The translations under genes were made by a program, and so were the position numbers. 64,000 nucleotides of DNA, taken from assembly GCA_008690995.1 (NCBI GenBank), contig VRMN01000023.1, positions 27,730 through 91,729 on the forward strand, given 5' to 3'. Under the pieces are notes generated by a model that ran no database searches, had not been told where the DNA came from, and saw nothing but the letters and a program-made list of their open reading frames with translations. Numbering within the stretch: position 1 is the stretch's first letter; each line of letters begins with the position of its first letter. The stretch comes from Porphyridium purpureum. Its lineage: Eukaryota > Rhodophyta > Bangiophyceae > Porphyridiales > Porphyridiaceae. This document shows positions 6,997-38,262 of the stretch, one piece after another.

Positions 6997-7829
6997 TTCT
7001 CTATGGCTGAGTAATGGCCAGAAATGTGCCGTGTCCCCTATCCGTTTCGACCTATTCCACATTCCCTTTTCACCGGACCTCTTTCCCTTTTATAGTAAAG
7101 CAGATCATTTTGCTAGTGAAACTTGAAAAAACGTACTGTCCCCTATTTGATTTGGTCGCACTTCACATGGTGTGTTTGAGGAAGCACGCTCGCGGCGCGC
7201 GAGCAAGGCGTAGATGCCGAGTGCCAAAGTTGCTCGAGGAATGTGTTCGTGCGCATGGCATTTGTAAAGAGCCTGCATACGCTCCCAAAAATGTCACCAG
7301 CCATCTTTGTGGACATACGACACAAAGTATCCCTCATCAGACCGTTCTGGGGAGCACAGAACATCCGCGGACTCAGGCCCATCTGGCTGCACGTACATAC
7401 ACTGGCGAGGCCTGCTGATTTTCGGCGCACATTTGCACCGAGCCATTGGTCCTAATCCTCGTTGTGTAACCGTCGCATCAGAGCAGAGGCACGAGCATCC
7501 TTTTCGACAGCACCAGGATGAACTTGGCGCGTGGCTAGCAGAGCGCAGTCCGTGCAGCCACTGGCGCCGGAAACGCGCGACCGCGCTTGGATATTTCAGC
7601 CAGCAACAATAAAGTGCTACATGGCAGGCCTTCCGCAGCAACACAATGACATTATTGCGACGCGCCAGAAAACATAGCCCGTCCCAGGCGCAGCAACCAT
7701 GTCGGTGTTCGCAGGGTCTGTTCAGCCAGTGGCCCCCTCATGTGCGCACCCGACACACGCTCACGAGCGACCGGCGCGACACCGGGACAGTGCTCAGCCC
7801 TTCCAGAACCCAAAGACACCAGCGCTGAC

Positions 7830-10061
7830 CTACTTCCAGTCCTCCACCTCCGGCCCGCCCGGCCACGTCCCGAGCTCCGGGAAGCGCCGCACAATAACTC
7901 TCATATTTGCCCGCTTGCTGGGCTGCTTCCGAAACCACAACCACTCGTCCAAGTTCGACACAGCGTGAGACTCTAAAAGCAAAGCGCACGCACGCTCGGC
8001 GCGCTCCGAATCACCACCAAGCACGCCAAACAGGTATTCCTCGAATCCTTCGTACGATTTCCGCCCCGCCACCCACTTTTCAACTTTCTTCTTGTCCGGA
8101 AATGACAGCCTTGCAAGCTCTTGAAACTCCCTCATGTCGTGCAGCGCGTCACCGTTCAACTTGCGCTCCCTCACATTCCTCACCGAGGCCTCATCAACCT
8201 GGAAGACCTCTTGCAGCACTCGAGCCAGCTGCTCACATGTCAGATCATCCAGCGCAGTTTCCGCAAGCGTCTTCTTCAAGTCAGCACCCTGGCTGTCGTT
8301 TCGGGACGGCCTGAACGGATCTGACACCGGCTCCGACACCGGCTCTAGCACCGGTTCTGGCACCGGCTCTGGCACCGGTTCTGGCACCGGTTCTGGCACC
8401 GGCTCTGGCACCGGTTCTGGCGCCGGCTCTGGCACCGGTTCTGGCGCCGGCTCTGGCACTGGTTCTGGCACAGGCTCCGGCACCGGTTTTGGCGCCTGCT
8501 CGGGCGCCGGCTCGGGCGCCGGCTTCGCGACATTAATTTTGAAGTCCGCAATCAGTTCCATCTCGCCACCTGCCGCCTCCTTCACATCCAGCCTCATTCC
8601 CTTCTGCGCCATTGCCACCAGACGCAACGCAGTCTTGAACCGCTCCGTGTCCAGGGACGAAAAAACCCCTTGACTGGTTGCAAGGCCCCAGATCTCATTC
8701 AGCACGCGGTTCCGCAGTCCAGACTTGGACAAAAACGCTACCGCTTCATGCACGTCCACCTCCCCGCTTCCGTCTGCGACAGCCACCTTCCAGTACTCCT
8801 CATGGCGCGCTGTCTCCAACGGCGTGCGCAAAACCGTGTCAAACCGGTTCCAACCCGGTACGTCGATCTTGGCGTGCAAGGACAACGAACCTTGCTGCAC
8901 ACGTGCGAGGCTCGCCTCCTCGCCGTTCTGCGCCAGCGCAACCCACCGCAGTGCGAGCACAAAGTCGTCGTAGGTGAGAGCGCGCTTGCCGCGAGCTGTC
9001 GCAATCTCGTCCCACATCCGATACAGCACCGACATCGGCAGCCGCGCCTTCGAGAAGAATACCAGTGCATTCTGAGCGTCCAACTCTCCGCTCCGATCCG
9101 AGTCGACGACCTTCCAATAATCTTTGCAATAATTTTCCTCGTCCGCGGCGCTTGACGTTCCTTCGGGGCCACACTGGAGGTCGCTCGTGTCCCACACCTT
9201 GGCCGTTTTGTCGCCGCCGCCAGACGCGACGACGCGGCCGTCGGGCGAAAAAAGCACCACACGCACCGAGTTCGAGTGCCCCATCAATGTGCGTACGCAC
9301 GCGCCGGTGTGTGCATCCCATACCTTGACCGCTTGGTCTTTGCTGCCAGACACGATGAACCGGCCATCGGGCGAGAAGTGAATCGCGCTCACCGCATCTG
9401 AGTGCCCCTCCACTGTGCGCACGCACGCGCCGGTTTGTGCATCCCAAACCTTGACCGTCGTATCCTCGCTGCCGGACGCGATGTACCGGCCATCGGGCGA
9501 AAAGTGCACCGCGCTTACCGCACCTGAGTGTCCCGTCAATGTGTGCTCGCACGCACCGGTGTGTGTGTCCCACATCCTGACCGTTTTGTCCCAGCTGCCG
9601 GACGCGATGAAGCGGCCATCGGGCGAAAAGTACACCGAACTTACGGAATTTGAGTGCCCCATGACGGTACGCACGCACGCGCCGGTATATGCATCCCACA
9701 CCTTGGCCGTTCTGTCGCTGCCGCCGGACACGATGAACCGGCCATCGGGCGAAAAGCGCACCGTGAAAACCAAATTTGAGTGCTCCGTCAATGTGCGCAC
9801 GCACGCGCCGGTGTGTGCGTCCCACACCTTGATCGTTCCGTCATGGCTGCCGGACGCGATGAACTGGCCGTCGGGCGAAAAGTGAACCGCACTCAGCCAA
9901 TCTGAGTGCTCCGTCAATGTGCGCAAGCACGCGCCGCTGTGTGCGTCCCACACCTTGATCGTGTCGTCAAAGCTTCCGGACACGATGAAGCGGTCATCGG
10001 GCGAAAAGTCCAGGGCGACCACCGCATACGAGTGCCCTACCAAATTCAACGCGATCGCCAT
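7830..10061 (-). CDS. WD40-EH-EH-SAM-like protein, copy A
   Basis: This is a 743-residue protein. I chose the ATG at 10061 because [11 protein letters not shown] aligns with the starts of copies B and C; the frame extends further 5' but loses homology. Seven 42-residue WD40 repeats form a propeller (about residues 7-297). Two EH domains follow, with EF-hand-like loops and FFSKARLP / FLSKSGL helices. Then come a long Pro-Glu-Val linker (8318-8525), a SAM-like helical segment ([13 protein letters not shown]...NGDALHDM) and a conserved C-terminus ending EDWK. EH domains usually bind NPF peptides in endocytic traffic, and WD40 propellers bind partners. The combined role here is unknown. In this copy both EF loops have lost a calcium ligand: the first has Asn at loop position 12, and the second has Val at position 1. 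Confidence 0.85.
8318..8525 (-). repeat. Coding hexanucleotide minisatellite, copy A (Pro-Glu-Pro-Val linker)
   Basis: Six-base units (GGCACC/GGTTCT type on the + strand) encode alternating Pro-Glu/Pro-Val/Pro-Ala on the minus strand. It is the longest of the three alleles of this linker and the main source of length difference between the copies. Confidence 0.9.
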
Positions 10062-10272
10062 CCCTCTTTTTCGCTTCACGTGCGCGTCGCCGCGCACTTC
10101 CCGTGTTCTTTTGCGGCAACCGCACACCCGCCCGTCCACAAACAGGCCTTCACCACCGGCCCTCCCACACACTCGTGCGCGCCCACTCCGTTCCGTGCGG
10201 CGAAACTAGACGCCAATCACGATTCCCGACATCCATCCACCGCCGCTAAGCGCGCGCGCTCGCATTTTCTAC

Positions 10273-10306
10273 CATTCCACCCGAAACGCCGGATCTGGCG
10301 CCGAAT
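10273..10306 (-). promoter_or_regulatory. Conserved upstream block of WD40-EH gene, copy A
   Basis: The block CATTCCACCCGAAACGCC and the following GGATCTGGCG..GAAT lies 212 bp upstream of the ATG. It recurs at nearly the same distance upstream of copies B (217 bp) and C (209 bp), while sequence around it has diverged. A promoter or leader function is inferred from conservation and fixed spacing. Confidence 0.45.
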
Positions 10307-10510
10307 GGAGGCCCGAAATATCGTAACGCGGCTGTGTAAATAGCGACTGGCGTTTTCCCGCCCGATGACATATCGCGCCTGCTGCCGCGTAGCACGCACG
10401 ATAGACAGTGCAGAATCAGAACGCGTCTGTGCGCGTCTGCATGGACGCGCGCGCATGTTGTGTGACCGCAACCCGCCCCGCCCTCGACCGCGCAGCGCTG
10501 GAGGTGGATG

Positions 10511-11244
10511 CATAACGCGCTAGTTCGTGTTTGTCAAAACCACTTTCAACACTTTATCAGAGCGCACGTCATTGTCAGGCTGTACCACTGAGCCACGTGC
10601 AGACAAGCAGTCGTGCCAGCATTTCCTAGACAGCGTTGATCATGATACAACGTACCAGCAAGACAAGATCACCAACCAGAACAATGCCGATCCGTGTGCA
10701 TGCGTGTCCACCAGGGCCTTAGTGCAATTGACACATCGGCGCGTGGCAGTGCCGTCGGGTGTAAACGAAGGGCCGCTTGCGGAGCTATGCAACTTTGAAA
10801 ATAAATGTAAAAACAATAAGGAAAAAGTTTGTGAAAACAAGAAGGGGTCTTATTCATTCGCGACACTGCCTGGAGTAGAGCAACTCGGCAGTGCGACATC
10901 TCTCTACGAGCTTTGGAGGAACCGGCTCACGTTCGGGCAGACCCCGCGCTTGGTGTAAACAAACGAAAGCAACAACACGTGTATTTCAACAGTTGCAATT
11001 CCAGGAAAGGAGAAAAACGAGAATCCAACCTTACGCGTACAGGCCCGACGTCTGGAACTTGTCCAGACATGAGTACCGTGCGGTCAGTTCAGACAATCGA
11101 GACGAGCAAGAGCATCAAACGACGTCCGCGATAGCTGCAAGGCGGTGTTTTGGAAGCTAGTGGCGACGTGTCAGGAAGAGTCACAAGGAGCGGTCGCAGC
11201 GAGTCACCAAGAAACTCGCGGATATGGTGGGCGCGGGTGCGAAT
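10511..11244. other. Intergenic spacer between duplication units A and B
   Basis: About 730 bp with no ORF that resembles a protein, no tRNA-like structure and no clear repeat. I see nothing assignable. Confidence 0.5.
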
Positions 11245-11930
11245 GTTGTGGATGAGGAAGCACTTTCACACTGCACGGGCACGGCGTAGATGATGAATGC
11301 CATAGTTGCTCGAGGAATGTGTCCCTGTGCGCGTGACATTTGCAAAGAGCTTGCGCACGATCCCAGCAATATCACGCCCGGCCAAGTATTAAATCACCAG
11401 TCAATTTTTGTGGACATGCCATACACAGTATCCCAGATCAGACCGTCCTGGGGAGCACACAACATCCGCGGACTCAGGCCCATCTGGCTGCACGCACATA
11501 AACTGGCGAGGCTTGGTGATTTTTGGCGGACATTCGCACTGAGCCACTGGTTCCAATCCTCGCTTTGCAACCGTCGCAGCAGCGCGTAAGCACGAGCTTT
11601 GTTTTACACCGCATCCGGATTAACTTCGCAGGTGGCTTGCAGAGCGCAGCCCGTGCAGCCACTGGCGCCGGAAACGCGCGACCGCGCTTGGATATTTCAG
11701 CCAGCAACAATAAACTGCTACATGGCAGGCCTTCCGCAGCAACACAATGACATTATTGCGACGCGCCAGAAAACATAGCCCGTCCCAGGCGCAGCAACCA
11801 TGTCGATGTTCGCAAGGTCTGTTCAGCCAGTGGCCCCCTCATGTGCGCACCCGACACACGCTCACGAGCGACCGGCGCGACACCGGGACACTACTCGTCC
11901 CTTTCAAATCCCAAAGACACCAGCGCTGAC

Positions 11931-14063
11931 CTACTTCCAGTCCTCCACCTCCGGCCCGCCCGGCCACGTCCCGAGCTCCGGGAAGCGCCGCACAATAACT
12001 CTCATATTTGCCCGCTTGCTGGGCTGCTTCCGAAACCACAACCACTCGTCCAAGTTCGACACAGCGTGAGACTCTAAAAGCAAAGCGCACGCACGCTCGG
12101 CGCGCTCCGAATCACCACCAAGCACGCCAAACAGGTATTCCTCGAATCCTTCGTACGATTTCCGCCCCGCCACCCACTTTTCAACTTTCTTCTTGTCCGG
12201 GAACGACAGCTGCACAAACTCCTGGAACTCCCTCATGTCGTGCAAGGCCTCACCGCTCACCTGGCGCTCCCTCACATTCCTCACCGAGGCCCCGTTAACC
12301 TCCAAGACCTCTTCCAGCACTCGAGCCAGCTGCTCACACGTCAGATCATCCAGCGCAGTTTCCGCAAACATCCTCTCCAAGTCGGTGTCCGGCTCTGGCA
12401 CCGGCTCTGGCACCGGCTTCGGCATCGGCATCGGCATCGGCATCGGCATCGGCATCGGCTTCGGCATCGGCTTCGGCATCGGCTCTGGCATCGGCTTCGG
12501 CTTCGGCATCGGTTCCGGTGCCGGCTTCGCGGCATTGATTTTGAAGTCCGCAATCAGTTCCATCTCGCCGCCTGCCGCCTCCTTCACATCCAGCCTCATT
12601 CCCTTCTGTGCCATTGCTACCAGACGCAGCGCAGTCTTGAACCGCTCCGTGTCCAGCGACGAAAACATCCCTTGGCTGGTTGCAAAGCCCCAGATCTCAT
12701 TCAGCACGCGGCTCCGCAGTCCAGACTTGGACAAAAACGCTACCGCTTCATGCACGTCCACCTCCCCGCTTCCGTCCGCGTCGGCCACCTTCCAGTACTC
12801 CTCGTGTCGCGCAGTCTCTGACAGCGTGCGCGCGACCCTGTCGAACGGGTTCCACCCGGGTACGTCGATCTTGGCGCGCAGTGACAGCGAACCTTGCTGC
12901 ACACGTGCGAGGCTCGCCTCCTCGCCGTTCTGCGCCAGCGCAACCCACCGCAGTGCGAGCACAAAGTCGTCATAGGTAAGCGCACGCTTGCCGCGAGCTG
13001 TTGCTATCGCATCCCACATCCGATGCAGCACCGACATCGGCAGCCGCGCCTTCGAGAAGAACGCCAGCGCCTCCTGAGCGTCCAACTCTTGGCTCCCATC
13101 CGAGTCGGCGACCTCCCAATAATCCTTGCAATATTTTTCCTCGTCAGCGTCACCTGACGTTCCTTCGGGGCCACACTTTAGGTCGCTTGTGTCCCACACC
13201 TTGACCGTTTTGTCAACACTGCCGGACGCGATGAATCGGCCATCAGGGGAAAAACGCACCGAACGTACCGAATTTGAGTGCCCCGTGATGGTTCGCACGC
13301 ACGCGCCCGTGTGTGCGTCCCATACCCTAACCGTCTCGTCGTCGCTGCCGGAAGCAATGAACCGGCCATCGGGCGAAAAGTGCACCGCGCTCACCGCCCC
13401 TGAGTGCCCCGTCAATGTGCGCACGCACGCGCCGGTGTTTGCGTCCCATACCTTTACCGTCTCGTCGTCGCTACCGGACGCGATGAACCGGCCGTCGGGC
13501 GAAAAGTGCACCACCTTAACCCAATCTGAGTGCCCGATCAATGAGCGCACGTACGCGCCGGTTTGCGCGTTCCAAATCTTGACCCTTTCGTCATCGCTGC
13601 CGGAAGCAATGAATCGACCATTGGGCGAAAAGCGAACCGCCTCCACACAATCTGAGTGCCCCGTCAACGTGTGCACGCACGCGCCCGTGTGTGCATCCCA
13701 CACCTTTACCGTCTCGTCATCGCTGCCGGACGCGATGAAACGGCCATCGGGCGAAAAATGAACCGCCTCCACAAAATCTGAGTGCCCCGTCAATGTGTGC
13801 ACGCACGCGCCGGTGTGCGTGTCCCACACCTTGACCGTTTTGTCATGGCTGCCGGACGCGATTAACCGGCTATCGGGCGAAAAGTGGACCGCGCACACCT
13901 TACGAGAGTGGCGGTCCATGGTGCGCACACAAGTGCGGGTGTGTGCGTCCCACACCTTGACCGTGTTATCCCAGCTGCCGGACGCGATGAGCCGGCCATC
14001 GGCCGAAAAGTCCACCGCGACCACCGCATCCGAGTGCCCCACCAAAGTCAACGGACGCGCCAT
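11931..14063 (-). CDS. WD40-EH-EH-SAM-like protein, copy B
   Basis: This is a 710-residue protein starting MARPLTLVGHS; the ATG at 14063 is preceded by AAAGGGGC, as in copy C. Seven WD40 repeats are very alike: four of them carry SGSDDE at the loop where the other copies vary. Two EH domains follow. The first EF loop has Gln in place of the Gly at loop position 6, and the second is canonical ([12 protein letters not shown]). The linker here is rich in Met-Pro and Lys-Pro rather than Pro-Glu-Val. The SAM-like segment and C-terminus ([16 protein letters not shown]...) match the other copies. No signal peptide or membrane segment is visible, so a cytosolic scaffold is likely. The function is unknown. 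Confidence 0.85.
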   Translation of the reverse strand: MARPLTLVGHSDAVVAVDFSADGRLIASGSWDNTVKVWDAHTRTCVRTMDRHSRKVCAVHFSPDSRLIASGSHDKTVKVWDTHTGACVHTLTGHSDFVEAVHFSPDGRFIASGSDDETVKVWDAHTGACVHTLTGHSDCVEAVRFSPNGRFIASGSDDERVKIWNAQTGAYVRSLIGHSDWVKVVHFSPDGRFIASGSDDETVKVWDANTGACVRTLTGHSGAVSAVHFSPDGRFIASGSDDETVRVWDAHTGACVRTITGHSNSVRSVRFSPDGRFIASGSVDKTVKVWDTSDLKCGPEGTSGDADEEKYCKDYWEVADSDGSQELDAQEALAFFSKARLPMSVLHRMWDAIATARGKRALTYDDFVLALRWVALAQNGEEASLARVQQGSLSLRAKIDVPGWNPFDRVARTLSETARHEEYWKVADADGSGEVDVHEAVAFLSKSGLRSRVLNEIWGFATSQGMFSSLDTERFKTALRLVAMAQKGMRLDVKEAAGGEMELIADFKINAAKPAPEPMPKPKPMPEPMPKPMPKPMPMPMPMPMPMPKPVPEPVPEPDTDLERMFAETALDDLTCEQLARVLEEVLEVNGASVRNVRERQVSGEALHDMREFQEFVQLSFPDKKKVEKWVAGRKSYEGFEEYLFGVLGGDSERAERACALLLESHAVSNLDEWLWFRKQPSKRANMRVIVRRFPELGTWPGGPEVEDWK
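12391..12526 (-). repeat. Coding hexanucleotide minisatellite, copy B (Pro-Met linker)
   Basis: GGCATC units dominate and encode Met-Pro on the minus strand, flanked by GGCTCT/GGCACC units (Pro-Glu, Pro-Val). The array sits at the same place as in copies A and C but with a different unit, so it has been rewritten since duplication. Confidence 0.9.
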
Positions 14064-14279
14064 GCCCCTTTCCGATCCACGCGCGCGTCGCCGCACCGAC
14101 ACGCTACCGCTTGCATGAACCACACACCCGTCCGTCCCTGCACAACTCTTCACCGCCGCCCCTTCCGCTTACTCGCGCGCGCTCTCTCCGTTGCGTGCGG
14201 CGAAACCAGACGTCACTCGCGATTCCCGACATCCAACTATCGCCGCATTACTCGTGCATGCTCGCATTTTCTATCGCGA

Positions 14280-14316
14280 CATTCCACCCGAAACGCCGCA
14301 TCTGGCGTCGAATTGA
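14280..14316 (-). promoter_or_regulatory. Conserved upstream block of WD40-EH gene, copy B
   Basis: CATTCCACCCGAAACGCC followed by GCATCTGGCGTCGAATTGA, 217 bp upstream of the ATG. It matches the blocks at 10273 and 21190. Confidence 0.45.
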
Positions 14317-14849
14317 CATATGAAACATCGAAACGGGGCCATGAAAATCGCGACTGGCGGTTTTCCTCACCCACGGCGCATTGCATCTGCGGCTCGCGCA
14401 GCACGCATGGAAAACAGCGCAGACTCAGAACGCGTCTGCGCGAGCCTGCATCGAGGCGCGGGTGTTTTCTGTGACCACCACTCGCGTCACCCTTGAACGC
14501 GTAGCGCCATAAGTGCACGCACAACGCGCGTATGCGTGTTGAGGTGCGTGTAAAAGTAGCGGGTCAGGTAACGGTTAAGGTGTAGTCGATAAACCGTCCA
14601 ACCGGTAACTGATAAGGTGTGTGTTTTAGAATCACGGTGGTGAATCATGATCAATGCCAGCGTGTCCCTGGGTAGGGCCAGCTGAAAAATTAAATGAGCT
14701 GAGTTTGGTCGCGTAACGTCCTGTCCACGGGCCAGTGCGCCGATATGGTACTCTGCACACCAACGTCCACAGATAGTTCCCGCTATCCCCACATGATCGG
14801 GCTCCCCTCTAGATACTACCAGAAAACACGAAAAGGTGTATTCCCAAGT

Positions 14850-15000
14850 CCGTTACGGATCAATAACATGAGCTGCCTCTCCGTTACCTGCGAATCTTCT
14901 GTTGTGAAAGATCCAAGAGCACGCTTCTCCACAACCCTTGTTATAACTGCGGTCATAATAAGAACTCCGTGCTAGGCTGCGCGGTACAAAAGCCAGCCGC
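14850..15000 (+). pseudogene. Degenerate gag zinc-knuckle fragment of a retroelement
   Basis: Codons 14939-14980 read CYNCGHNKNSVLGC, a CCHC zinc knuckle in which the His position is Asn. No long ORF surrounds it. I take it as the remains of a retrotransposon gag inserted in the B-C spacer. The call rests on one motif only. Confidence 0.3.
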
Positions 15001-15534
15001 CTCTCGGTGGACGTGTCGCAATGTAGAGTTCTCGTCAGAGTGGAACAGAGTAAGAAGGGGCTGGTAAAGCTTTCAGTTGACTCGTAACGGGAAACCGAAG
15101 CAATAAGCTGCGCGGGTCACGGGAGGTGCGCGCAGCTATCCGCTCTCAAAACTGCCAGTAGATACGCACCATGATAGTACAACGACACAACGCAAAAGCA
15201 CTGACAATCGCGATTCGGTGTCTTTTTAGGTTGGAAAGCGTATCGCGTGTATCGGCACGCTTCTCCTCCACCTCAAAACGTGGAGCTAATTGACCTGTCC
15301 GAGTGTTCTACCGACCCAATAATCGCTTAACCGTTTCCGTACAATGGTATCCCCTCTGGACCTCCCGGGTCCTAAACATAACTCACACTCGATTAAACTC
15401 AGGGCTGATGCGATCTCCCACAGTTTAAGCCCGTCGTTAGCGGCGGGCTTCAGGAGAAGATCACGAGAAGAACTAGAAAGAGAAGAATGGCCAGAATAAA
15501 GAAAGGAGAGGGAGGACGGGTGAGATAGAACACC
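15001..15534. other. Spacer sequence, probable retroelement debris
   Basis: No convincing ORF or RNA gene. It includes a short hairpin AAGCCCGTCG..CGGCGGGCTT at about 15427-15451. It lies between two gag-like fragments and is probably decayed transposon sequence. Confidence 0.35.
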
Positions 15535-15770
15535 GAGGAGACACTCGAGAGGCTGTCAGTGTCTGAAGTGCGAGACGCAGCAACAAACCTAGGCATTGAG
15601 CCGGTCCCTCGTCAGCGCGCAGGACTTCTGCGCGCACTGCGGGAGCACCGCCCGCTACAGATATTAAACGGCGAAACTGAGGATGCACAGGACGTAATTG
15701 AGGACCATGCGCTTTCTGGACAGAGCCCAGGAGATCAAGCGGCGCTGGACATTGGAGAAAGCACGCGTCA
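15535..15770 (+). pseudogene. Gag-like N-terminal fragment (SAP-like segment)
   Basis: The plus-strand frame reads LERLSVSEVRDAATNLGIEP, then RQRAGLLRAL. This resembles the SAP-like or helical N-terminus of some retrotransposon Gag proteins and continues with acidic sequence up to an LTR-like segment. It lacks any downstream domain. The assignment is tentative. Confidence 0.3.
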
Positions 15771-15772
15771 AT

Positions 15773-16078
15773 TGTTATCAGCTGTGTATCTGAGTGTTTT
15801 TTTACTGTCGGTCTCTTCTTCCTACCTCTTCTCTCTCCGAGCAAGACCTGACCGGCTAGTCCGGGCAGGCGCGTCGCCTTTTTATACCCTTACTTCCGCC
15901 AGGGACAGCAAGGGGCCAAGAGAAATGACAATGCAAATCATTGGCATTTCTGCGCGCGTCTGGAAGGTTCTGGAACCTCTAGAAGCTTTTAGAAACGATT
16001 AAACGGTCTACCGGTTAACGGTTTACCGGTTTCGGATTAACCGAACCGTTCTAGGTGACTGGGGTCGAACGGATAACA
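15773..16078 (-). repeat. LTR-like segment bounded by TGTTATC...GATAACA
   Basis: A 306-bp segment has perfect 7-bp terminal inverted repeats of the TG...CA type (TGTTATC at 15773, GATAACA at 16072). Read on the minus strand it has a good TATA box (GGGTATAAAAAGGCG, about 15879-15893) at the place expected in an LTR. Flanking pentamers (TCAAT / TTGAG) do not match, so it is not a clean solo insertion. A short terminal-repeat DNA element is the alternative. Confidence 0.4.
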
Positions 16079-16172
16079 TTGAGGAAATAAGAGCCGGCAA
16101 GTTGTTAGGTAGCTGCACGACGGTCCTTTGGCAGCAAGGAAGAAGAGGAGGAGGTGAGTACCGTCCGTGAAA

Positions 16173-16210
16173 AGTGCGTCTCAAACAATCAGCAAACTGC
16201 AAAGTTTGTT
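16173..16210. repeat. Left terminal inverted repeat of Tc1-like element
   Basis: It matches the reverse complement of 17480-17517 with only a few mismatches over about 36 bases. The shared core is TGCGTCTCA.ACAAT.AGCA. Confidence 0.75.
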
Positions 16211-16322
16211 CTTCTTCAGTGAATTATGAATTTTTATTATGAAGACCTGTTATGGCGAGGGAAACAGGATGCTCGATCAAATAGCTCAATGGACAAAGAG
16301 AGACTATATGGAGATCTAGGAA

Positions 16323-17336
16323 CTAAACGTTCTGGACGTTCGCGCCCTCCATGTTCACGCACCGGTGTAGACGTGCATTCCACCCCGTCACAAGGCTCCC
16401 GACCTCTGCGTTCGTGATCGACGCCCACACTTCCATGATTTCAGCCTCCAGCTCCGAGAGAGACTCATACTGCCTGTTTCCGGCGTACATTCGGCGCGAC
16501 ATAATGCTCCACACGTTCTCCACCGGATTCAGGTCTGGCGAGTACGCTGGCCAATCCATTACATGCCATCCTTCGCGCGCGAAGAAGGACTTTGTATTCC
16601 GCGCCACATGAGCAGGGGCATTGTCCTGCATGAATGTCCATCCTTCTGGATGGGTTTCACTGACGATGGTCGCCACTCGAGAGGACTCCAGCATGGCCAC
16701 ATAGTTTTCTGAAGTGATCCTTGCTGGGGTCTTCAGGAGCGCCATCTTCCCGGCGGAAGAAATTGCCATCCAAAACATCACACTTCCGCCGCCCGTATGA
16801 CGACGGACTCGATCCGGGAACTCTCCTGTCCGGACCCACTGACCAGAATACCCATCAGGGCCATCTAAATTGAACTTCTTTTCATCCGTAAAGATGACTT
16901 TTCTATGCTCTTCAATTTTGTTCAGATTTTGCATGGCAAATGCCACGCGACGCAGCCGATTCTCACGGGAAAGAGGCTGCCTCACGATGGCACGCCGAAA
17001 GGACAGATCATCAGCCATATTGCGCCTCACTGTCTCACGGCTTACCGGCTTGCTTTGGGACCTGCCGGTATTGACCTGCATTGTGAGAGCCTTTAGAGGG
17101 CTCCTAGGAGCCGCTCTAAGTTTATTCAAAACGCGCGTTTGAGCGGGTCCTGTGAATTTGCGGGCATTCTGATTGCCGACGTAGCCTGGGGTCGCGTCGG
17201 GCTGGTCCAGAAAGCGTTTTACGGCATTTCTGGACCGATCCGCGCGCGTGGCTATATCGGACAATTTCAGCCCCTCCGCGCGCCATCCCCAGATGGCACG
17301 CTTCTCCGCCTCGGTCAACGCACCCGCGCGCCCCAT
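16323..17336 (-). CDS. Tc1-like DD34E transposase, full length
   Basis: This is a 337-residue protein, the usual length for Tc1 enzymes; the first in-frame ATG is at 17336. A homeodomain-like helix-turn-helix (ALTEAEKRAIWGWRAEG...LSDIATRADRS) is followed by a second DNA-binding helix set. The catalytic core has Asp in FTDEKKFNLDGPDG, Asp in MQDNAPAH and Glu in SPDLNPVENVW, with 34 residues between the last two. All three metal ligands are present and no frameshift is seen. The enzyme would cut and paste its own element into TA sites. It shares the FTDEKKFNLDGPDG and DWPAYSPD blocks with the decayed copy at 6.1-7.0 kb. Confidence 0.9.
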   Translation of the reverse strand: MGRAGALTEAEKRAIWGWRAEGLKLSDIATRADRSRNAVKRFLDQPDATPGYVGNQNARKFTGPAQTRVLNKLRAAPRSPLKALTMQVNTGRSQSKPVSRETVRRNMADDLSFRRAIVRQPLSRENRLRRVAFAMQNLNKIEEHRKVIFTDEKKFNLDGPDGYSGQWVRTGEFPDRVRRHTGGGSVMFWMAISSAGKMALLKTPARITSENYVAMLESSRVATIVSETHPEGWTFMQDNAPAHVARNTKSFFAREGWHVMDWPAYSPDLNPVENVWSIMSRRMYAGNRQYESLSELEAEIMEVWASITNAEVGSLVTGWNARLHRCVNMEGANVQNV

Positions 17337-17479
17337 TTCCCGCCCGAAATCGCCCTCTTCTTGTCGACTGGCCGCCGCCGGGCGCGCCAAAACGCTTGTG
17401 TCCTATTTGTTTGAGCATCGTGTTTCCCCCTTCGAAACACGTCTTCATAGTAAACTTTCATAATTTACTATGAAAATGG

Positions 17480-17517
17480 ACAAATTTTGCAGCGTGCTAA
17501 TTGTCTGAGACGCATTT
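17480..17517. repeat. Right terminal inverted repeat of Tc1-like element
   Basis: The reverse complement pairs with 16173-16210. It ends CGCATTT before a TACT flank. Confidence 0.75.
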
Positions 17518-18179
17518 ACTGGCGAAGGACTGTGCTGCTAAGTACGCAGTGAGACAAGAGCAATGAATTTTGAGTGTGGCATGGTTTGGGCAAATGGGCG
17601 CACTTCAGGTTTTCGGAGATAGTCGTCATTGCTTGCGAGGCCGGTCATTGTGATAAGGTGCGATTCCTCAATACTTGAGGGGTTGTGATTGATGCGCTCG
17701 ACGCAGTTTTTGAGTCCAGGCGGGCTTTTGCGAGCCGAGGGGTGCCTATATGATCAACCATCTACCAACTTCTCCGAGTTTCTCAATCCACAATAAAAGG
17801 TAAGGCTGATTGAACAACGGAACTTTTCCTAGAGGTAATCTACGTGAAGTAGCCTACCGTGCAGTGCACGCGAGCTCAGGACCTCCCCGCGCAAGCGTCC
17901 AGGCTCAGCTCTTTCATCCGTCGAGAGAGAGGACACGACCGGATTTTACAGTACGCGGAGAGGAGTGGGAAGCCGTCTTCAACAACATCTGTTGACGGAG
18001 TTGTCATGGGCAGAAGTATTGCGAGAATTGTGATGGAGCCGAGTGCGAGTCGCACGATCGTATTCACGAGGATTCCGATGAGTGAAAACCTGTGCGCAAG
18101 CGTCAGATGGAGCGGTCACGGCGAGCGGCCAACGGATTCATGGGCATGGTGTGCGTAGGTAGGCATAGCGCAGTGAGAA
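17518..18179. other. Spacer between the Tc1-like element and duplication unit C
   Basis: About 660 bp with no recognisable gene. Similarity to the far 3' flank of units A and B starts near its right end. Confidence 0.5.
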
Positions 18180-18845
18180 AGCGTGTTCGTATCGCGGGCA
18201 CGGCGTACATGCTGAGTACCAAAGTTGCTCGAGGAATGTGTCCGTGCGCGTGGTATTTGCAAAGAGCTTGCGCACGACACCAAAAATGTCCCCAGCCATT
18301 TTTATGGAAATGCCATTTGAAGGGTTCGCATGAGACTGTCACGCGGAGCACACAACATGCGCAGACTCGCGCCCATCTGGCAGACAGCATTCGAACCAGC
18401 GGGTCTTGCTGATTTTCGGCGCACATTCGCGCTGAGCCACTGGTCTCAATCCTCGTTCTGTAATCGTTGCGTCAGCGCACAGGCAGGAGGATCCTTTCAT
18501 ACAGCACCGGGATGAACTTGGCGCGTGGCAAGCAGAGCGCAGCCCGTGCAGGCGTTGACGCCCGAAACGCGCAAATGTGCTTGGATACACCAGCCAGCGC
18601 CAATCAAGCGTTCCACAGCACGCTACACGGGCCCGGCCTCCAGGCGTTCCGCAGAAAGAAAACAACATTCTCGCTTCCAGCCGGAAAACATAGCCCGTCC
18701 CAGGCGCAGCAACCATGTCGATGTTCGCAAGGTCTGTTCAGTCAGTGGCACCCGCGCGTGCGCTCCACGTACACACTGACGAGCAACCGGCGCGACACCG
18801 GGACACTGTTCGTCCGCATCAAAACTCAAAGGCACCAGCATCGGC

Positions 18846-20981
18846 CTACGTCCAATCTTCCGCGTCCGGCCCGCCCGGCCACGTCCCGAGCTCCGGGAAG
18901 CGCCGCACAATCGTCCTCATACTTGTTCGCTTGCTAGGCTGCTTCCGAAACCACAACCACTCGTCCAAGTTCGACACAGCGTGAGACTCTAAAAGCAAAG
19001 CGCACGCACGCTCGGCGCGCTCCGAATCACCACCAAGCACGCCAAACAGGTATTCCTCGAATCCTTCGTACGATTTCCGCCCCGCAACCCACTTTTCAAC
19101 TCTCTTCTTGTCCGGGAATGAAAGCTGCACGAACTCCTGGAACTCCCTCATGTCGTGCAAGGCCTCACCGCTCACCCGGCGCTTCCTCACATTCCTCACC
19201 GAGGCCCCATCAACCTGCAAGACTTCTTGCAGCACTCGAGCCAGCTGCTCACACGTCAGATCATCCAGCGCAGTTTCCGCAAGCGTGTTCTTCAAGTCAG
19301 CACCCTGGCTGTCGTTTCGGGACGGCCTGAACGGATCTGACACCGGCTCTGACACCGGCTCTGACACCGGCTCTGACACCGGCTCTGACACCGGCTCTGG
19401 CGCCGGCTCTGGCACCGGTTCTGGCGCCGGCTCGGGCGCCGGCTTCGCGACATTGATTTTGAAGTCCGCAATTAGTTCCATCTCGCCACCTGCCGCCTCC
19501 TCCACATCCAGCCTCATTCCCTTCTGCGCCATTGCCACCAGACGCAACGCAGTCTTGAACCGCTCCGTGTCCAGCGACGAAAAAACCCCTTGACTGGTTG
19601 CAAGGCCCCAGATCTCATTCAGCACGCGGTTCCGCAGTCCAGACTTGGACAAAAACGCTACCGCTTCATGCACGTCCACCTCCCCACTTCCGTCTGCGTC
19701 GGCCATCTTCCAGTACTCCTCGTGTCGCGCAGTCTCCGACAGCGTGCGCGCGACCCTGTCGAACGGGTTCCACCCGGGTACGTCGATCTTGGCACGCAGT
19801 GACAACGAACCTTGCTGCACACGTGCGAGGCTCGCCTCCTCGCCGTTCTGCGCCAGCGCAACCCACCGCAGTGCGAGCACAAAGTCGTCATAGGTAAGCG
19901 CACGCTTGCTGCGAGCTGTCGCAATGTCATCCCACATCCGGTACAGAACCGAGATCGGCAGCCGCGCCTTCGAGAAGAACGCCAGCGCCTCCTGAGCGTC
20001 CAACTCCCCACTCCCGTCCGAGTCGGCGACCTCCCAGTAATCTTTACAATATTTCTCCTCATCAGCGTCACCTGACGTTCCTTCGGGGCCACACTTGAGG
20101 TCGCTTGTGTCCCACACCTTGACCGTTTTGTCAACACTGCCGGACGCGATGAATCGGCCATGGGGCGAAAAATGCACCGCGCTCACCGAATCTGAATGCT
20201 CCATCAATGTGCACACGCGTGCGCCGGTGTGCGCTTCCCACACATTGACCGTTTTGTCCCAGCTGGCGGACGCGATGAGCCGGCCATCGGGCGAAAAGTG
20301 AACCGCGCTCGCCACATCTGAGTGCTCCATCCATGTGCGCACGCACGCGCCAGTGTGTGCGTCCCACACTTTGACCGTTTTGTCGCAGCTGCCGGAAGCG
20401 ATGAACTGGCCATCGGGCGAAAAGTGCGCCGCGCGCACCGAATTTGAGTGCCCCGTGATGGTTCGCACGCACGCGCCGGTGTGTGCGTCCCACACCTTGA
20501 CTGTTCTGTCCTTGCTGCCGGACACGATGAGCCGGTTATCGGGCGAAAAATCCACCGCATATACCGTATTAAAGTGCCCCGTCAATGTGAGCACACACGT
20601 GCCGGTGTGTGCGTCCCACACTTTGACCCTTCCGTCCTTGCTTCCGGACACGATGAATCGGCCATCGGGCGAAAAACGCACCGCGAAAACCACATCTGAG
20701 TGCCCCGTCAATGTGCGCACGCACGTGCCGGTGTGTGCGTCCCACACTTTGACCGTTTTGTCGGAGCTGCCGGACGCAATGAACCGGTCATTGGGCGAAA
20801 AGTGAACTGCAAGTACCCAATCTATGTGCTCCGCCAATGTGCGCAAGCACGCGCCGGTATGTGCGTCCCACAACTTGATCGTCTTGTCTTTGCTGCCGGA
20901 CATGATGAACCGGCCATCGGGCGAAAAGTCCAAAGCGTACACCGAAGCTGAGTGCCCCACCAAAGTCACCGCGGTCGCCAT
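18846..20981 (-). CDS. WD40-EH-EH-SAM-like protein, copy C
   Basis: This is a 711-residue protein starting MATAVTLVGHS. Domains: seven WD40 repeats (7-297); EH1 (about 309-383) with a canonical EF loop DSDGSGELDAQE; EH2 (about 417-489) with [12 protein letters not shown]; a Pro-Glu linker (513-551); a SAM-like segment (about 566-636); and a C-terminal helical tail. It is the only copy with both EF loops intact, so it may be closest to the ancestral state. The WD40 repeats differ mainly at the residue before the Asp of each SGSxD turn (K,S,K,K,C,W,V) and around HSxxVxxV. The cytosolic location and partner-binding role are inferred from the domains. Confidence 0.85.
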   Translation of the reverse strand: MATAVTLVGHSASVYALDFSPDGRFIMSGSKDKTIKLWDAHTGACLRTLAEHIDWVLAVHFSPNDRFIASGSSDKTVKVWDAHTGTCVRTLTGHSDVVFAVRFSPDGRFIVSGSKDGRVKVWDAHTGTCVLTLTGHFNTVYAVDFSPDNRLIVSGSKDRTVKVWDAHTGACVRTITGHSNSVRAAHFSPDGQFIASGSCDKTVKVWDAHTGACVRTWMEHSDVASAVHFSPDGRLIASASWDKTVNVWEAHTGARVCTLMEHSDSVSAVHFSPHGRFIASGSVDKTVKVWDTSDLKCGPEGTSGDADEEKYCKDYWEVADSDGSGELDAQEALAFFSKARLPISVLYRMWDDIATARSKRALTYDDFVLALRWVALAQNGEEASLARVQQGSLSLRAKIDVPGWNPFDRVARTLSETARHEEYWKMADADGSGEVDVHEAVAFLSKSGLRNRVLNEIWGLATSQGVFSSLDTERFKTALRLVAMAQKGMRLDVEEAAGGEMELIADFKINVAKPAPEPAPEPVPEPAPEPVSEPVSEPVSEPVSEPVSDPFRPSRNDSQGADLKNTLAETALDDLTCEQLARVLQEVLQVDGASVRNVRKRRVSGEALHDMREFQEFVQLSFPDKKRVEKWVAGRKSYEGFEEYLFGVLGGDSERAERACALLLESHAVSNLDEWLWFRKQPSKRTSMRTIVRRFPELGTWPGGPDAEDWT
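19336..19445 (-). repeat. Coding hexanucleotide minisatellite, copy C (Pro-Glu / Ser-Glu linker)
   Basis: GGCTCT and GACACC units alternate and encode Pro-Val-Ser-Glu on the minus strand. It is the shortest of the three arrays. Confidence 0.9.
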
Positions 20982-21189
20982 GCCCCTTTACCCTTTCGCG
21001 CGCGCGTCGTCGCGACCGCACCGTGCCCTCTGCGTCTACCGCACACCCGCCCGTCTACACACAGCCTCCACTTTCGCCCCTCCCGCAAACTCTCGCGCGC
21101 CCTCGTGCGGCGAAAGCAGGTGCGACTCACGATTGCCGGCAGTCGATCACATCCGCAACGCTTGCGCGCGCGCGCGTGTTTTCTTTAAC

Positions 21190-21226
21190 CATTCCAACCG
21201 AAACGCCGGATATCGCATCGAATTGA
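21190..21226 (-). promoter_or_regulatory. Conserved upstream block of WD40-EH gene, copy C
   Basis: CATTCCAACCGAAACGCCGG followed by a GAATTGA stretch, 209 bp upstream of the ATG. It matches the blocks at 10273 and 14280. Confidence 0.45.
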
Positions 21227-21486
21227 TGGCCGAAATATCGTGAACTGGCCACGAAAATCGCGACTGGCGGTTTTCCTCCCCAACGGCGCACCGCGTGCGG
21301 TTAGCGCAGCACTCACGGGAGACAGCGCAGACTCAGAGAGTGCCTGCACGAGCCTGCATCGACGCGCGCGTGCGTTCTGTCGCCGCCAGCCGCGTCGCCC
21401 TGCGACACGCAGCGCAGCGCCGCAGGTGCGCGCAGAACGCGCGCAAGCGCACAGCGTCATCACCATCGCGCCGTGCCGCACCTTTC

Positions 21487-21654
21487 CTTCCACTGTACTT
21501 GCGCTGTACTTGCGCTGTACTTGCGCTGTACTTGCGCTGTACTTCCGCTGTACTTGCGCTGTACTTGCGCTGTACTTGCGCTGTACTTGCGCTGTACTTG
21601 CGCTGTACTTGCGCTGTACTCTCACTGTACTTGCGCTATACTCCCACTGTACGT
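21487..21654 (+). repeat. 11-bp CTGTACTTGCG minisatellite upstream of RPS28
   Basis: Fifteen units with an exact 11-bp period: CTGTAC starts at 21493, 21504, 21515 and so on to 21647, with one unit reading CTATAC. It lies 210-370 bp upstream of the RPS28 ATG. The motif recurs in other intergenic regions, which suggests a regulatory element expanded in tandem. Confidence 0.9.
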
Positions 21655-21861: not shown

Positions 21862-22059
21862 ATGGATCAGGAAGTCAAGCTGGCCAAGGTCACCAAGGTG
21901 ATCGGGCGCACGGGATCGCGAGGAGGCGTGACGCAGGTCAAGGTCGAGTTCTTGGACGACCAAAACCGCTCCATCATCCGCAACGTCAAGGGCCCCGTCC
22001 GCGAGGGAGATATCCTGTGCTTGCTCGAGTCCGAAAGAGAGGCCCGCAGACTTCGCTAG
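21862..22059 (+). CDS. RPS28: 40S ribosomal protein S28 (eS28)
   Basis: This is a 65-residue protein of the standard eS28 length. It contains the family's [21 protein letters not shown] and ends [19 protein letters not shown], which is almost invariant in eukaryotes. It sits in the head of the small subunit, near the mRNA exit. I chose the ATG at 21862 because upstream in-frame codons do not match the family. The CTGTAC array and a purine-rich leader (GGAGGCGGAGGAAAT) lie upstream. Confidence 0.97.
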
Positions 22060-22441
22060 GTTCGCGGGCCGCGCGCTGTCGGTCTGGGCCCGTTATCTAA
22101 GCCACTGGGAGATGGGCATTCGCGTACACCAAGCCGGTGAGCGAGGGGGGCTTCATGGAAGAGAAGAGTCGTTTGAGCTTACGCAGCGAGTCGAGTGAGG
22201 TTGCCAAATGCTCTTGCGGGCTACAGTCAGAATGGCGCCTCGCGCGTGTGTGATGTGGTTGATTGCGTTGATCCTAGAAACCATCTGATAGTTCTGTACG
22301 GATAAAATATGCGGACACTTACATGACTGTGGGTGTGGGTGTGGTTGATTGCCAGTGTGGTAGTATAGTCGACGATCTCAAGGCCGCAGCGTTTGTCGTC
22401 ATCTTGGCGGCTGCCTCCGTCTCGCGGGGTGAAAGCCTCGC

Positions 22442-23008
22442 TCATTTCCGCAGGCGCTTGATGACGCGCTCTGCGTCGATAAAGCCCAGAAACGGCAGCG
22501 CGCGTAGTGGCCGGTACTTGAACTTGCCCCACGTTGAGTTGAACGGTGGCATCATAGCGTGCATGTGTAGGTACGGCACGGAGCGCGTGACCGGCGCGTG
22601 AAAGCCCAAAACGACGTCTGCAGTCGCCGACGCGACTCCTCCGTGCGAGCCGTCCGCTTGCGCGAGCTTGGCATGCTGTGCCAGGACGCAATCGCGCCCG
22701 ACCTCGATCATATGCCGCAGAAGCGGCTCGTGCACCGCACGCAGCTTCTCGACACCACGGATGAATTCATGCCGTGGCACCACTAGCAAGTGCACGTGGG
22801 CTCCTGGTGCGCGGTCCCAGAACACCACCAGCTGCTCATCGCGCATGACCACATCATCGTTGCTCTTGTTTCTGAAAAACGCCTCCCACTCCTCGCGACG
22901 TTGGTGCGGCTGCTGCTGCTCCTGTTGCCGTGTCGTGTCGTGCGCTTGCTCCTGCGCTGAGTGAGCTGTGTCTACGCGCGGGCCGCGTTCGCGCATGCCG
23001 GCCGGCAT
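22442..23008 (-). CDS. HIT-domain protein, HINT3-like nucleotide phosphoramidase
   Basis: This is a 188-residue protein with the HIT fold: VVFWDRAPGAHVHLLVVPRHEFI, then SVPYLHMHAMMPP, ending GFIDAERVIKRLRK, the ending typical of HINT3. The family hydrolyses AMP linked through nitrogen. In the triad block the first His aligns with Tyr (YLHMH), while the middle, nucleophilic His and the last His remain. I chose the ATG at 23008; longer in-frame starts would overlap the divergent neighbour, which begins 77 bp away. It converges with RPS28. Confidence 0.8.
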   Translation of the reverse strand: MPAGMRERGPRVDTAHSAQEQAHDTTRQQEQQQPHQRREEWEAFFRNKSNDDVVMRDEQLVVFWDRAPGAHVHLLVVPRHEFIRGVEKLRAVHEPLLRHMIEVGRDCVLAQHAKLAQADGSHGGVASATADVVLGFHAPVTRSVPYLHMHAMMPPFNSTWGKFKYRPLRALPFLGFIDAERVIKRLRK

Positions 23009-23085
23009 GCTCGCGCCGTTTCCTTTGCTTGGCTTCCAAACTCTTACGGGTGAAGCAGACAAGAAGCCCTCACATGTAGAGCAGA

Positions 23086-24150
23086 ATGGAAGACGGAACA
23101 AGCGCCGACGGCGCGTCGCCCGCGATGCCACCTGAGCCAAACAACGCCGGGCTCGACGCGCGGCAGATGTGGCAGCACTTGCAGAAACACACGGGTGAAT
23201 GGCACGGTATCCGTTCCGTGTGCGCGGCATCTGGGCGCGTACTTGTTGAAGTGGGCACGTTTGTCGAAGTCGTGCCCGAGTCAACGTCAGCAGGAGGCAG
23301 TTCGCGCTCGCAGTTGGTATGGACGACGTGGGTGCAGGAAGACACGACAAGTAGCCCTGCAGTCGCAACAGTGCGCTTGCCGACAAATCGCAAATCCAGT
23401 GGTGCCGCTGCAGCACGAGTTGATCGTGTTGGAGCCAACAAGTCAGAGACCTGGAGCTCGGCAGATGTTGAGGATCTGGGTGTCGTGTTTGAGGATGGCT
23501 CGTTCTCGCTGGGTCCCGCGGAAGCTGGAAGCACGGCGGGCGAGCAGTTTCTTCTTCAGCATGGCATTTTGCAGGGCGAGATGGGCATGCGCGTGCGCGT
23601 GATTCATGCTTTCGACTATGAACGCCGTCTGGTTGGGATCACAATATGCCGCGAACGAACTCGCATGAATGTGGCACCAGCGGGAAGCATCTCGCCCGCT
23701 GCGTGGCGTTCACCGATAGCGCTGATCAAGTTCACCTTCGGGCGCTGGGAGGGCTCGGGCGTGATGGCGGACGAGCGCTCTGGGCGACTTTTGCGTATTC
23801 AGTCCGTCTGGGAACTGCGGTTAGAACGGTTTGGCGAGGTGGAGCTCACATCCTCGCTGCAGGTTGGTGCGCAAAATGGAGATCGGGAAGAGTCGCGTGC
23901 AGCCAGTACGACCGTGCGCGGACGCGAGGACGAGAATGTGCTGATGTTCCCTTCCACCGCATCGCACATGGTAGCGCTGAGCGGCGGTATCCTGGTTTCG
24001 CAGCCTCTGCAGATGTTCCGAGGCACGCGCGCAGCAATCGAGCTGTTCTTTCTCGTGCGACCCGGTTATCGAAGACGGCTGATCCGGTTCTACAACGCTG
24101 AGCTTGACTGGACCAGTACCGCGTACCTGACTGAGCGGATGGTGGGATGA
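23086..24150 (+). CDS. DUF3598-like protein, probably of plastid/cyanobacterial ancestry
   Basis: This is a 354-residue soluble protein. The N-terminal block MWQHLQKHTGEWHGIRS and the C-terminal RRLIRFYNAELDWTSTAYLTE resemble the two ends of DUF3598 proteins of cyanobacteria and plastids, which are thought to have a lipocalin-like barrel. The central part has many short beta-like stretches. No clear transit peptide is visible, although the acidic Ala/Ser/Gly-rich N-terminus is hard to judge. It shares a 77-bp bidirectional promoter with the HINT3-like gene. The family call is from memory of the pattern, and the function is unknown. Confidence 0.5.
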   Translation: MEDGTSADGASPAMPPEPNNAGLDARQMWQHLQKHTGEWHGIRSVCAASGRVLVEVGTFVEVVPESTSAGGSSRSQLVWTTWVQEDTTSSPAVATVRLPTNRKSSGAAAARVDRVGANKSETWSSADVEDLGVVFEDGSFSLGPAEAGSTAGEQFLLQHGILQGEMGMRVRVIHAFDYERRLVGITICRERTRMNVAPAGSISPAAWRSPIALIKFTFGRWEGSGVMADERSGRLLRIQSVWELRLERFGEVELTSSLQVGAQNGDREESRAASTTVRGREDENVLMFPSTASHMVALSGGILVSQPLQMFRGTRAAIELFFLVRPGYRRRLIRFYNAELDWTSTAYLTERMVG

Positions 24151-24344
24151 GAGGAAGCTTCAGCTGTAAGAAAAAGCACGCTTGTCCACAAACTTGCGCA
24201 GATCATGGACCCCCTGAGAAAGCGAATAGATAAGGCATATACTTAAAAGAAGAAGACAAAGAAAGAGCGAATAGAAATTGACCGTACGCTGCCGTTCGAT
24301 GGCGCGCATTCTCCCTCAGCGCTGCTGCCATGATTCAGATCTCA

Positions 24345-25445
24345 CTAGTTGGGCGAAGAAAACTTTTGGCTCTCAGGGGCAACGTAGAACAGCGAAGAGC
24401 GATCGCCACCACGTCGGTACATGCGCACAACGTCGGCACCTTGCTCACTCGTCACGCCGTGCGGCACATAGTCGAGGTCTTCAAAGGTGAGAATGCCTGG
24501 CTCCTCTCTCAGAATGTTATTTGTGCATTCGAGCACGAACGCATCATGCGGGACAATGGGGTTCGGATTGAACAAAGGTAACCGGAGACCAAGCAGTTTG
24601 CCCAGAAAGGGTGCCACTTGGCGCGGCAAGTGCACAGGACCGCCCAGCATCTTGGTCTCGGTGATGCAGAACTCGACCAAGTCTGCCATGGAGATCGGCG
24701 CAGGTCCCGCCAGCACGAGTGTCTGGCCCGCAAACCCTTCTGGGTCGCGCACAATACCACCCATTACCACAGCGATGTCCTGCATGTACACAGGCTGCAA
24801 CATGTACTCGCCATAATCGATGATCGGGTATCGCCTGGTTTTTTGCAGCAGCTGGCAAATGCGATTGAGCAGGCGGTCTTCGTAGCCGAAAATGTCTGTG
24901 GCGCGCACGATGACAGCGTCCGGGTAATGCGCGCGCACGGCCTGCTCCGCGGCATACTTACTGACGTTCCAGGCGGAGGGCGACACGGGCGAGGCGTTCG
25001 CGCATGACATTTGCACAAACTGGTGCACGCCGCACTGCTTCGCGATACGCGCGATCGTGTCCGAGCCCGTGACGTGCACGTCGGTGTACGAAAAGTTGCG
25101 CGTCTCATAGTGCTTACCCATGAGATTGATGACGACGTCACTGTGCTGCATGGCACGACGGACCGACTCTTCGTCGCGGATATGGAACTCCACGGGCACA
25201 ATCTGCCCCAAGTCGCCCATCAGCTTGAGGTGCCTGTGGTTGAGGCCATCGCCGCGCCACGGCACCACGACCTGTGTGCCATGCCGCCCTAGCTCGTTCA
25301 CGACGTACCGCCCGACAAACCCAGTGGCACCAAACACCGTGGCAGTCACGCCCGACACCGACGCGCGCCCGCCGGAGCCGCGCGATCCCACCTCGGACAT
25401 GCCGCTCTGCAGCATCAGCGCCAACGCGCGCCCCGTCGCGCGCAT
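24345..25445 (-). CDS. NDUFA9: NDUFA9-like 39-kDa subunit of mitochondrial complex I
   Basis: This is a 366-residue atypical short-chain dehydrogenase. After a basic, Arg/Ala-rich presequence (MRATGRALALMLQSG) comes the NADPH-binding GATGFVGRYVVNELG, then DVVINLMGKHYETRNFSY, FVQMSCANASPVSPS, SKYAAEQAV and RATDIFGYEDRLLN, all typical of NDUFA9. In complex I this subunit binds NADPH structurally at the Q-module/membrane-arm junction and is not catalytic. I preferred the ATG at 25445 because it gives a mitochondrial presequence and the usual length; an upstream in-frame start exists at 25550. Confidence 0.9.
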   Translation of the reverse strand: MRATGRALALMLQSGMSEVGSRGSGGRASVSGVTATVFGATGFVGRYVVNELGRHGTQVVVPWRGDGLNHRHLKLMGDLGQIVPVEFHIRDEESVRRAMQHSDVVINLMGKHYETRNFSYTDVHVTGSDTIARIAKQCGVHQFVQMSCANASPVSPSAWNVSKYAAEQAVRAHYPDAVIVRATDIFGYEDRLLNRICQLLQKTRRYPIIDYGEYMLQPVYMQDIAVVMGGIVRDPEGFAGQTLVLAGPAPISMADLVEFCITETKMLGGPVHLPRQVAPFLGKLLGLRLPLFNPNPIVPHDAFVLECTNNILREEPGILTFEDLDYVPHGVTSEQGADVVRMYRRGGDRSSLFYVAPESQKFSSPN

Positions 25446-34454: not shown

Positions 34455-34546
34455 CATCCGTTTTGCTTTTCCTGGTGGTGGTTGCAACGTGGCGTCGGCG
34501 GCAGCAGCAGCATATTCTGCCTCCCTCTCCACGTGCTCGACACGAG

Positions 34547-38225: not shown

Positions 38226-38262
<37 letters not shown>

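Follow-up and report, generated by a model that had tools for sequence, protein, structure and literature searches.

The codons under selection in the NWD repeats of Podospora anserina (7, 9, 25, and 27) flank two conserved residues (PMC1805685). Ten WD40 repeats appear to be the lower limit for activity of the Podospora genes, and the pseudogenes NWDp1 and NWDp2 retain an open repeat array and carry their stops elsewhere. Here we describe a gene family in one genome of the unicellular red alga Porphyridium purpureum, of which three members (genes A, B, and C) lie in a stretch of 64,000 nucleotides (the window) and encode WD40 repeats, behind which come two EH domains and then a domain with a SAM-like fold. 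We propose that the family is a repertoire of recognition scaffolds that evolves like the HNWD genes of P. anserina but is wired to EH and SAM-like domains, a proposal that in our estimate stands about evenly between right and wrong.

The open reading frames (ORFs) of genes A, B, and C form a single block on the minus strand and each contains seven WD40 repeats, as an earlier note on this sequence had described. That note also called the C-terminal halves of the three genes nearly identical, which was too strong: those of A and B have 87-89% protein identity to that of C, and over a 300-nt stretch spanning the stop codon gene A is 97% and gene C 83% identical to gene B. The family extends beyond these three copies, as a genome search with the tail as query gave 36 matches, and 14 open-frame members were assembled on the contigs that we label C31 (A, B, C, and Y; C31 contains the window, and the fourth gene is at C31:14761-17310), C22 (A, B, C, X, and Y), C20 (four), and C40 (one). 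An additional copy on C33 (C33s) is identical to C20s, and decayed copies were found on C45, C17, C11, and C1.

Variation among the repeats was analyzed in a frame of 42 residues, into which 20 of the 21 window repeats fitted (the first repeat of gene C is one residue short and was left out). Variation was greatest at positions 34, 16, 18, and 36, and none of the 111,930 possible sets of four positions had a larger summed entropy than this one. The sites to which the earlier note had confined the variation are thus top-ranked, although it had missed the residue after the conserved Asp (position 36); its listing of the residue before the Asp in repeats 1 to 7 (F,H,S,W,E,K,G in A; W,H,D,D,D,D,V in B; K,S,K,K,C,W,V in C) was exact. 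For the whole family, 93 repeats from the 14 genes gave 79 unique sequences, excluding repeats not of 42 residues or failing a consensus score (this removed, for example, the initial repeat of C31C, of C22C, and of C22X and one or more repeats of C31Y, of C20p, and of C20q) and three duplicate or decayed genes (C33s, C45a, and C1). Positions 18, 16, and 34 led in this set and position 36 ranked seventh, while the four positions together displayed 66 residue combinations, the fourth-highest number of the 111,930 sets. Two long arrays described below gave partly similar rankings: in the 20 repeats on C3 the order began with positions 34, 2, 18, and 16, and in 19 repeats of the C1 array positions 15, 16, 18, and 36 led, with position 34 eighth.

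Positions 16, 18, and 34 correspond, in the same numbering, to the published WD40 top-face hotspots R1-2, R1, and D-1 (PMC3419727), consistent with the earlier placement of the variable sites on the upper, ligand-binding face. When the two conserved residues of the Podospora repeats are mapped to V17 and D35 of our frame, a mapping of our own, the Podospora codons 7, 9, 25, and 27 fall at 16, 18, 34, and 36. The hot sites were first named by the earlier note from these same data, and the independent part of the result is therefore that the literature points to the same positions. The head of gene C, whose repeats match the WD40 consensus, was modeled as a propeller of seven four-stranded blades (28 strands).

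Comparison of the genes on C31 with their counterparts on C22 points to exchange of repeats. The counterparts are 98-100% identical in most 120-nt intervals of the WD40 array, but the last repeats of C22B and C22C are only 72% identical to those of their C31 counterparts. C22B and C22C in turn share an identical tract of 529 nt, which replaces the last repeat and reaches the EH1 region, and whose length in polymorphic sites was attained in none of 2,000 permutations. The longest matching run in each of six chosen gene pairs was likewise attained in 0/2,000 permutations, and exact 126-nt repeats were found in genes that are not counterparts (C31B.7 = C22X.6; C22B.7 = C22C.6 = C22Y.2, in the numbering of our script). 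Whole-repeat exchange between genes is well supported by these comparisons, and we read the identical tracts as conversion. Repeat number also differs between counterparts, with approximately nine repeats in C31Y and two in C22Y. In genes that have three repeats or more, the amino acid identity among them is 0.55-0.68 (0.61-0.68 in the window genes), and it reaches 0.85 (0.91 for nucleotides) in a 966-residue open array of 19-21 WD40 repeats at C1:2367146-2370043, which precedes an EH tail interrupted by stops.

The tail is the constant part of these proteins. Its EH domains, recognized in the earlier note, were borne out by matches to the Pfam EH family (expectation value, E, 2e-13, above cut-off) and to the Eps15 EH structure (E 1.6e-10), and by a weaker match of EH1 to the EH domain of REPS1 (Table 1). 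The pocket Trp is kept in both EH domains of A, B, and C in an alignment, and the EF-type loops are intact in both domains of B and C, where they probably bind Ca2+. The classical EH ligand is the tripeptide Asn-Pro-Phe (NPF), and 11 of the 14 open-ORF genes have this motif between EH1 and EH2; an Asp-Pro-Phe (DPF) motif is present in the linkers of A and C and of the counterparts of these two. An EH domain has been reported to be able to bind DPF (PMC2238750), and EHD2 is a precedent for control of self-association by NPF (PMC4398442). The C-terminal domain matched a five-helix SAM fold by structure comparison, whereas searches by sequence gave no SAM match, so that this part of the proposed architecture has structural support only. 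The connection to endocytosis is one that we infer from domain identity alone.

Ratios of nonsynonymous to synonymous rates (dN/dS, or omega) differ sharply between the tail and the variable face. Median tail values, taken over 63-88 of the 91 non-independent gene pairs after dropping those that were saturated or had dS ≤0.1, were 0.13 for the C-terminus, 0.20 for the SAM-like domain, 0.22 for EH2, 0.26 between the EH domains, 0.33 for EH1, and 0.44 for the linker; the tail domains (0.13-0.33, with 63-84 of the pairs behind each median) are under purifying selection. The codon tests on the repeats use one tree of recombining sequences, and their p-values are consequently optimistic. Outside the four hot sites omega was 0.36 (p 1e-45 against 1), and purifying selection is strong on V17 and D35, each of which is enclosed by a pair of hot sites, an arrangement in pairs also seen in Podospora. 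The nonsynonymous rate at the three hotspots is approximately four times that of the remaining sites. With a synonymous rate shared with the other sites, omega was 1.40 at the three hotspots (p 0.005) and 1.27-1.40 over the hot-site sets; 1.40 is the sole positive result, and it depends on the shared synonymous rate. The synonymous rate at hot codons 16, 18, 34, and 36 itself appears raised (2.2-2.6 vs. 1.5).

Several of our results weigh against a recognition role. Given their own synonymous rate, the three hotspots have an omega of 1.01, falling to 0.79 when position 36 is included; dN does not significantly exceed dS at any single codon, and at codon 36 the ratio is significantly lower than 1 (p 0.006). 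Close pairs, where they could be counted, gave 0.79-0.85 at the three hotspots and 0.45-0.77 once position 36 was added. On the dN/dS check that the earlier note had proposed, loss of constraint at the contact sites is firm, and positive selection is unproven. Variability at the hotspots does not by itself show recognition, because it is a general trait of highly repetitive WD40 proteins (Hu et al., 2017; PMC5587647). In gene A the loop ends are altered, the final E of the EH1 loop being replaced by N and the initial D of the EH2 loop by V. NRF takes the place of NPF in gene A and in its counterpart on C22, and C20s has NPL at that position; gene A may have lost the NPF ligand.

No relative of the tail outside P. 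purpureum was found among 5.8 billion proteins at the sensitivity of the tool used, with scoring of the best 8,000 candidates in part of the searches. Nine other matches (P0005-P0013) were rejected as relatives, all aligning to the low-complexity PEP-rich linker (P0011 extends past it). A search of phage records gave no match, and no orthologous housekeeping family of known role, which the earlier note had named as grounds for refutation, turned up in protein database searches. We found no published description of an EH-tailed WD40 family among the literature matches listed, and the main text of the P. purpureum genome paper contains no occurrence of "WD40." Neither a NACHT nor a HET domain was found in the complete domain lists for the B and C tails or among 25 of the 63-67 whole-protein matches, and at most ~40 residues precede the propeller, leaving no room for an N-terminal HET domain. 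Two NACHT matches elsewhere in the genome (one over the cut-off) were rejected as linked candidates, as both are on C2, a contig on which no family member was found. Because no NACHT or HET was found, the EH-tailed WD40 family is not a member of the HNWD family.

If these proteins are recognition scaffolds, the top face of the propeller would bind a partner that differs between copies, and whole-repeat exchange between genes would reshuffle the binding faces. Binding would be relayed through the constant tail, whose EH domains could take an NPF ligand, and the NPF between them might render most copies self-associating or autoinhibited. SAM domains of this kind commonly self-assemble; the SAM-like domain could thus assemble the proteins, and the complex would be carried to membranes or to sites of endocytosis. 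Since it is the contact sites that have lost the most constraint, our guess is that the partner is foreign or fast-changing, with an intruder protein, a varied self cargo, or a mate or kin marker as candidates.

The main rival, which we rate as rather unlikely, is near-neutral birth and death, by which a young, internally duplicated WD40 scaffold would be copied and homogenized by recombination and its loop residues, under little constraint, would drift with no diversified partner. A hot-site omega indistinguishable from 1, with no codon above it, is what drift would leave, positions 2, 11, 15, and 21 also reach 0.85, and the generality of hotspot variability in highly repetitive WD40 proteins (PMC5587647), the several decayed copies, and the transposon-rich surroundings fit as well. 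However, the tails of the same genes stay under purifying selection, and the proteins therefore are or were used; the fourfold nonsynonymous rate at the three hotspots and the coincidence of the four hottest window positions with published contact and selection sites are also poorly accommodated by drift. Another alternative is that the proteins are diversified endocytic adaptors, with the propeller taking copy-specific self cargo and the EH/SAM tail plugging into a shared coat machinery, in the absence of any non-self recognition. The conserved pocket Trp of A, B, and C, the EF-type loops of B and C, and the NPF and DPF motifs, both reported EH ligands (PMC2238750), would suit such adaptors. 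Faces reshuffled by conversion would not, and neither would a tail matched only in P. purpureum. Ordinary cargo adaptors are expected to be conserved between species, and we consider this explanation improbable. Most doubtful of all is allorecognition in the strict sense of the het genes, in which incompatibility would be triggered when unlike cells fuse. The repeat dynamics are HNWD-like and several relatives are named HET-E-1 by NCBI, but in the tail scans and whole-protein matches covered above no HET or NACHT was found, and none of the 10 papers listed, out of 988 matching Porphyridium with cell fusion, sex, or allorecognition, mentions the genus; we regard this explanation as very improbable.

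A second type of tail occurs behind similar WD40 heads. The ORF at C11:1588110-1590305 (L059) pairs a similar head with the hinge already present in the EH-tailed genes (TSDLKCGP), followed by a dissimilar tail of 393 residues with a coiled-coil-like region (by eye), a hydrophobic stretch (IAAVTALISFIPYAGAGLT; maximum Kyte-Doolittle hydropathy of 1.64 over 19 residues vs. 0.77 in the EH tail), and a terminal EF-hand-like unit. A tail of this type with 63% identity stands behind 20 repeats at C3:207460-211752 (L046), and decayed pieces of it are close to WD40 frames at C33:190-194k. Searches of the second tail against Pfam and PDB sequences gave nothing significant, and a genome search with it did not return the EH-family tails. 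Heads and tails look modular, as in fungal NOD-like receptors (NLRs; PMC4986451). One could go further and envisage a NACHT-free, NLR-like system independent of the fungal HNWD genes, in which one exchangeable pool of WD40 sensors is mounted on at least two dissimilar tails; the EH-NPF-EH-SAM tail would assemble at membranes, the other tail has the coiled-coil-like region and hydrophobic segment, and the alga would thereby possess a diversifying repertoire of receptors. We offer this tentatively, as possible but more readily doubted than believed.

The coordinates of the three window genes and their features are given in Table 1. The likelier start ATGs are at 10061 (A), 14063 (B), and 20981 (C), which align with one another and with that of a P. 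purpureum relative.

Table 1. Positions of the family genes and their features within the window.
Feature	Position	Strand	Details
Gene A	7830..10172	-	7 WD40, EH1, NRF instead of NPF, EH2, PEP-rich linker with DPF, SAM-like, C-terminal helices
Gene A WD40 repeat array	9187..10037	-	Period 126 nt
Gene B	11931..14153	-	Architecture as gene A, but NPF present
Gene B NPF motif	12843..12851	-	Between EH1 and EH2
Gene B WD40 repeat array	13191..14040	-	Period 126 nt
Gene C	18846..20981	-	Architecture as gene A, NPF present, ATG start
Gene C WD40 propeller	20106..20981	-	Residues 1-292; 28 strands predicted, predicted local distance difference test score (pLDDT) mostly >90
Gene C EH1	19848..20069	-	Residues ~305-378; EF loop DSDGSGELDAQE at 320; REPS1 EH match, E 0.0027
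Gene C NPF motif	19761..19769	-	Residues 405-407
Gene C EH2	19524..19751	-	Residues ~411-486; EF loop at 428; conserved Trp in NEIWGLA
Gene C PEP/SEPV low-complexity linker	19332..19444	-	12-nt tandem repeat
Gene C SAM-like domain	19068..19301	-	Residues 561-638; fold by structure comparison
Gene C C-terminal helical stretch	18849..19067	-	Fold not established

The region C22:119.6k-153.5k is what we call a near-identical second copy of C31:10.5k-49.2k (shared block from C31:10533 to 49190), and it may be a duplicate or a structurally different haplotype. The block is edged by a repeat element on one side and an 11-bp tandem array on the other. An ordinary haplotig is disfavored, as the sequence outside the shared block differs where inspected: nothing near the C22 cluster matches window positions 22000-40000, for which the sole match on C22 is 270 bases at 619 kb, and the matches to C31:500-9000 are ten copies of one 4.9-kb element together with the end of C46. 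The 11-bp array (CTGTACTTGCG; 13.6 copies, window 21493-21642) begins ~30 bases past 21461, the point at which the homology with the C22 cluster ends. A Tc3-type transposase (window 16323-17390, minus strand; DDE_3 E 8e-20) sits between genes B and C, and at least 16 further copies of it, longer than 900 bases, have 84-97% identity and terminal inverted repeats. More diverged clusters of WD40 ORFs with other tails are at C33:195728-202254 (L045) and C20:304807-308606 (L055).

Were the recognition proposal correct, a unicellular red alga would be using the trick of the fungal het genes, an exchangeable WD40 pool with variable contacts, without NACHT or HET, and a recognition repertoire would have arisen convergently in a lineage whose gene inventory is strongly reduced. 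The family would then be a candidate for the sensing of intruders or kin by red algae, and a natural experiment on the downstream requirements of a WD40 recognition head, with SAM-like and EH domains replacing the NOD.

The family resembles the NWD/HNWD genes of P. anserina (het-d, het-e, and het-r) in its high internal WD40 repeat identity, concerted exchange between genes, variation at the residues flanking a conserved V and a conserved D (by our mapping), and changes in repeat number, and the C1 locus, with its open array and a tail with stops, resembles NWDp1 and NWDp2. It differs in having the WD40 head at the N-terminus and an EH-EH-SAM tail in which no HET or NACHT was found, in having mostly ~7 repeats vs. 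10, and in that positive selection is undemonstrated; the likeness drawn in the earlier note thus holds for the mode of evolution, and not for membership of that family. As in the repetitive WD40 proteins of Hu et al. (2017; PMC5587647), the propeller is young and internally duplicated with variable hotspot residues, whereas the P. purpureum genes form a multigene family whose tail is constant. The window genes (0.61-0.68) are moderately repetitive, below the identity of ≥0.7 for highly repetitive proteins that the decayed C1 array (0.85) exceeds, where our values are mean pairwise identities and theirs is a threshold over contiguous repeats. With Eps15/Pan1-type proteins and plant AtEH1/Pan1 the family has in common tandem EH domains that carry a pocket Trp and loops of the EF type. 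The TPLATE complex has separate subunits, TWD40-1 and TWD40-2, besides AtEH1/Pan1 (PMC8144573), whereas here WD40 and EH domains are in one polypeptide, together with a SAM-like domain and, in most copies, an internal NPF. Also comparable are the brown-algal candidate immune receptors of the leucine-rich repeat (LRR)-ROCO type (PMC11378527), another algal repeat repertoire diversified by shuffling, which is built of LRR exons and a GTPase core where the P. purpureum family combines WD40 repeats with EH and SAM-like domains.

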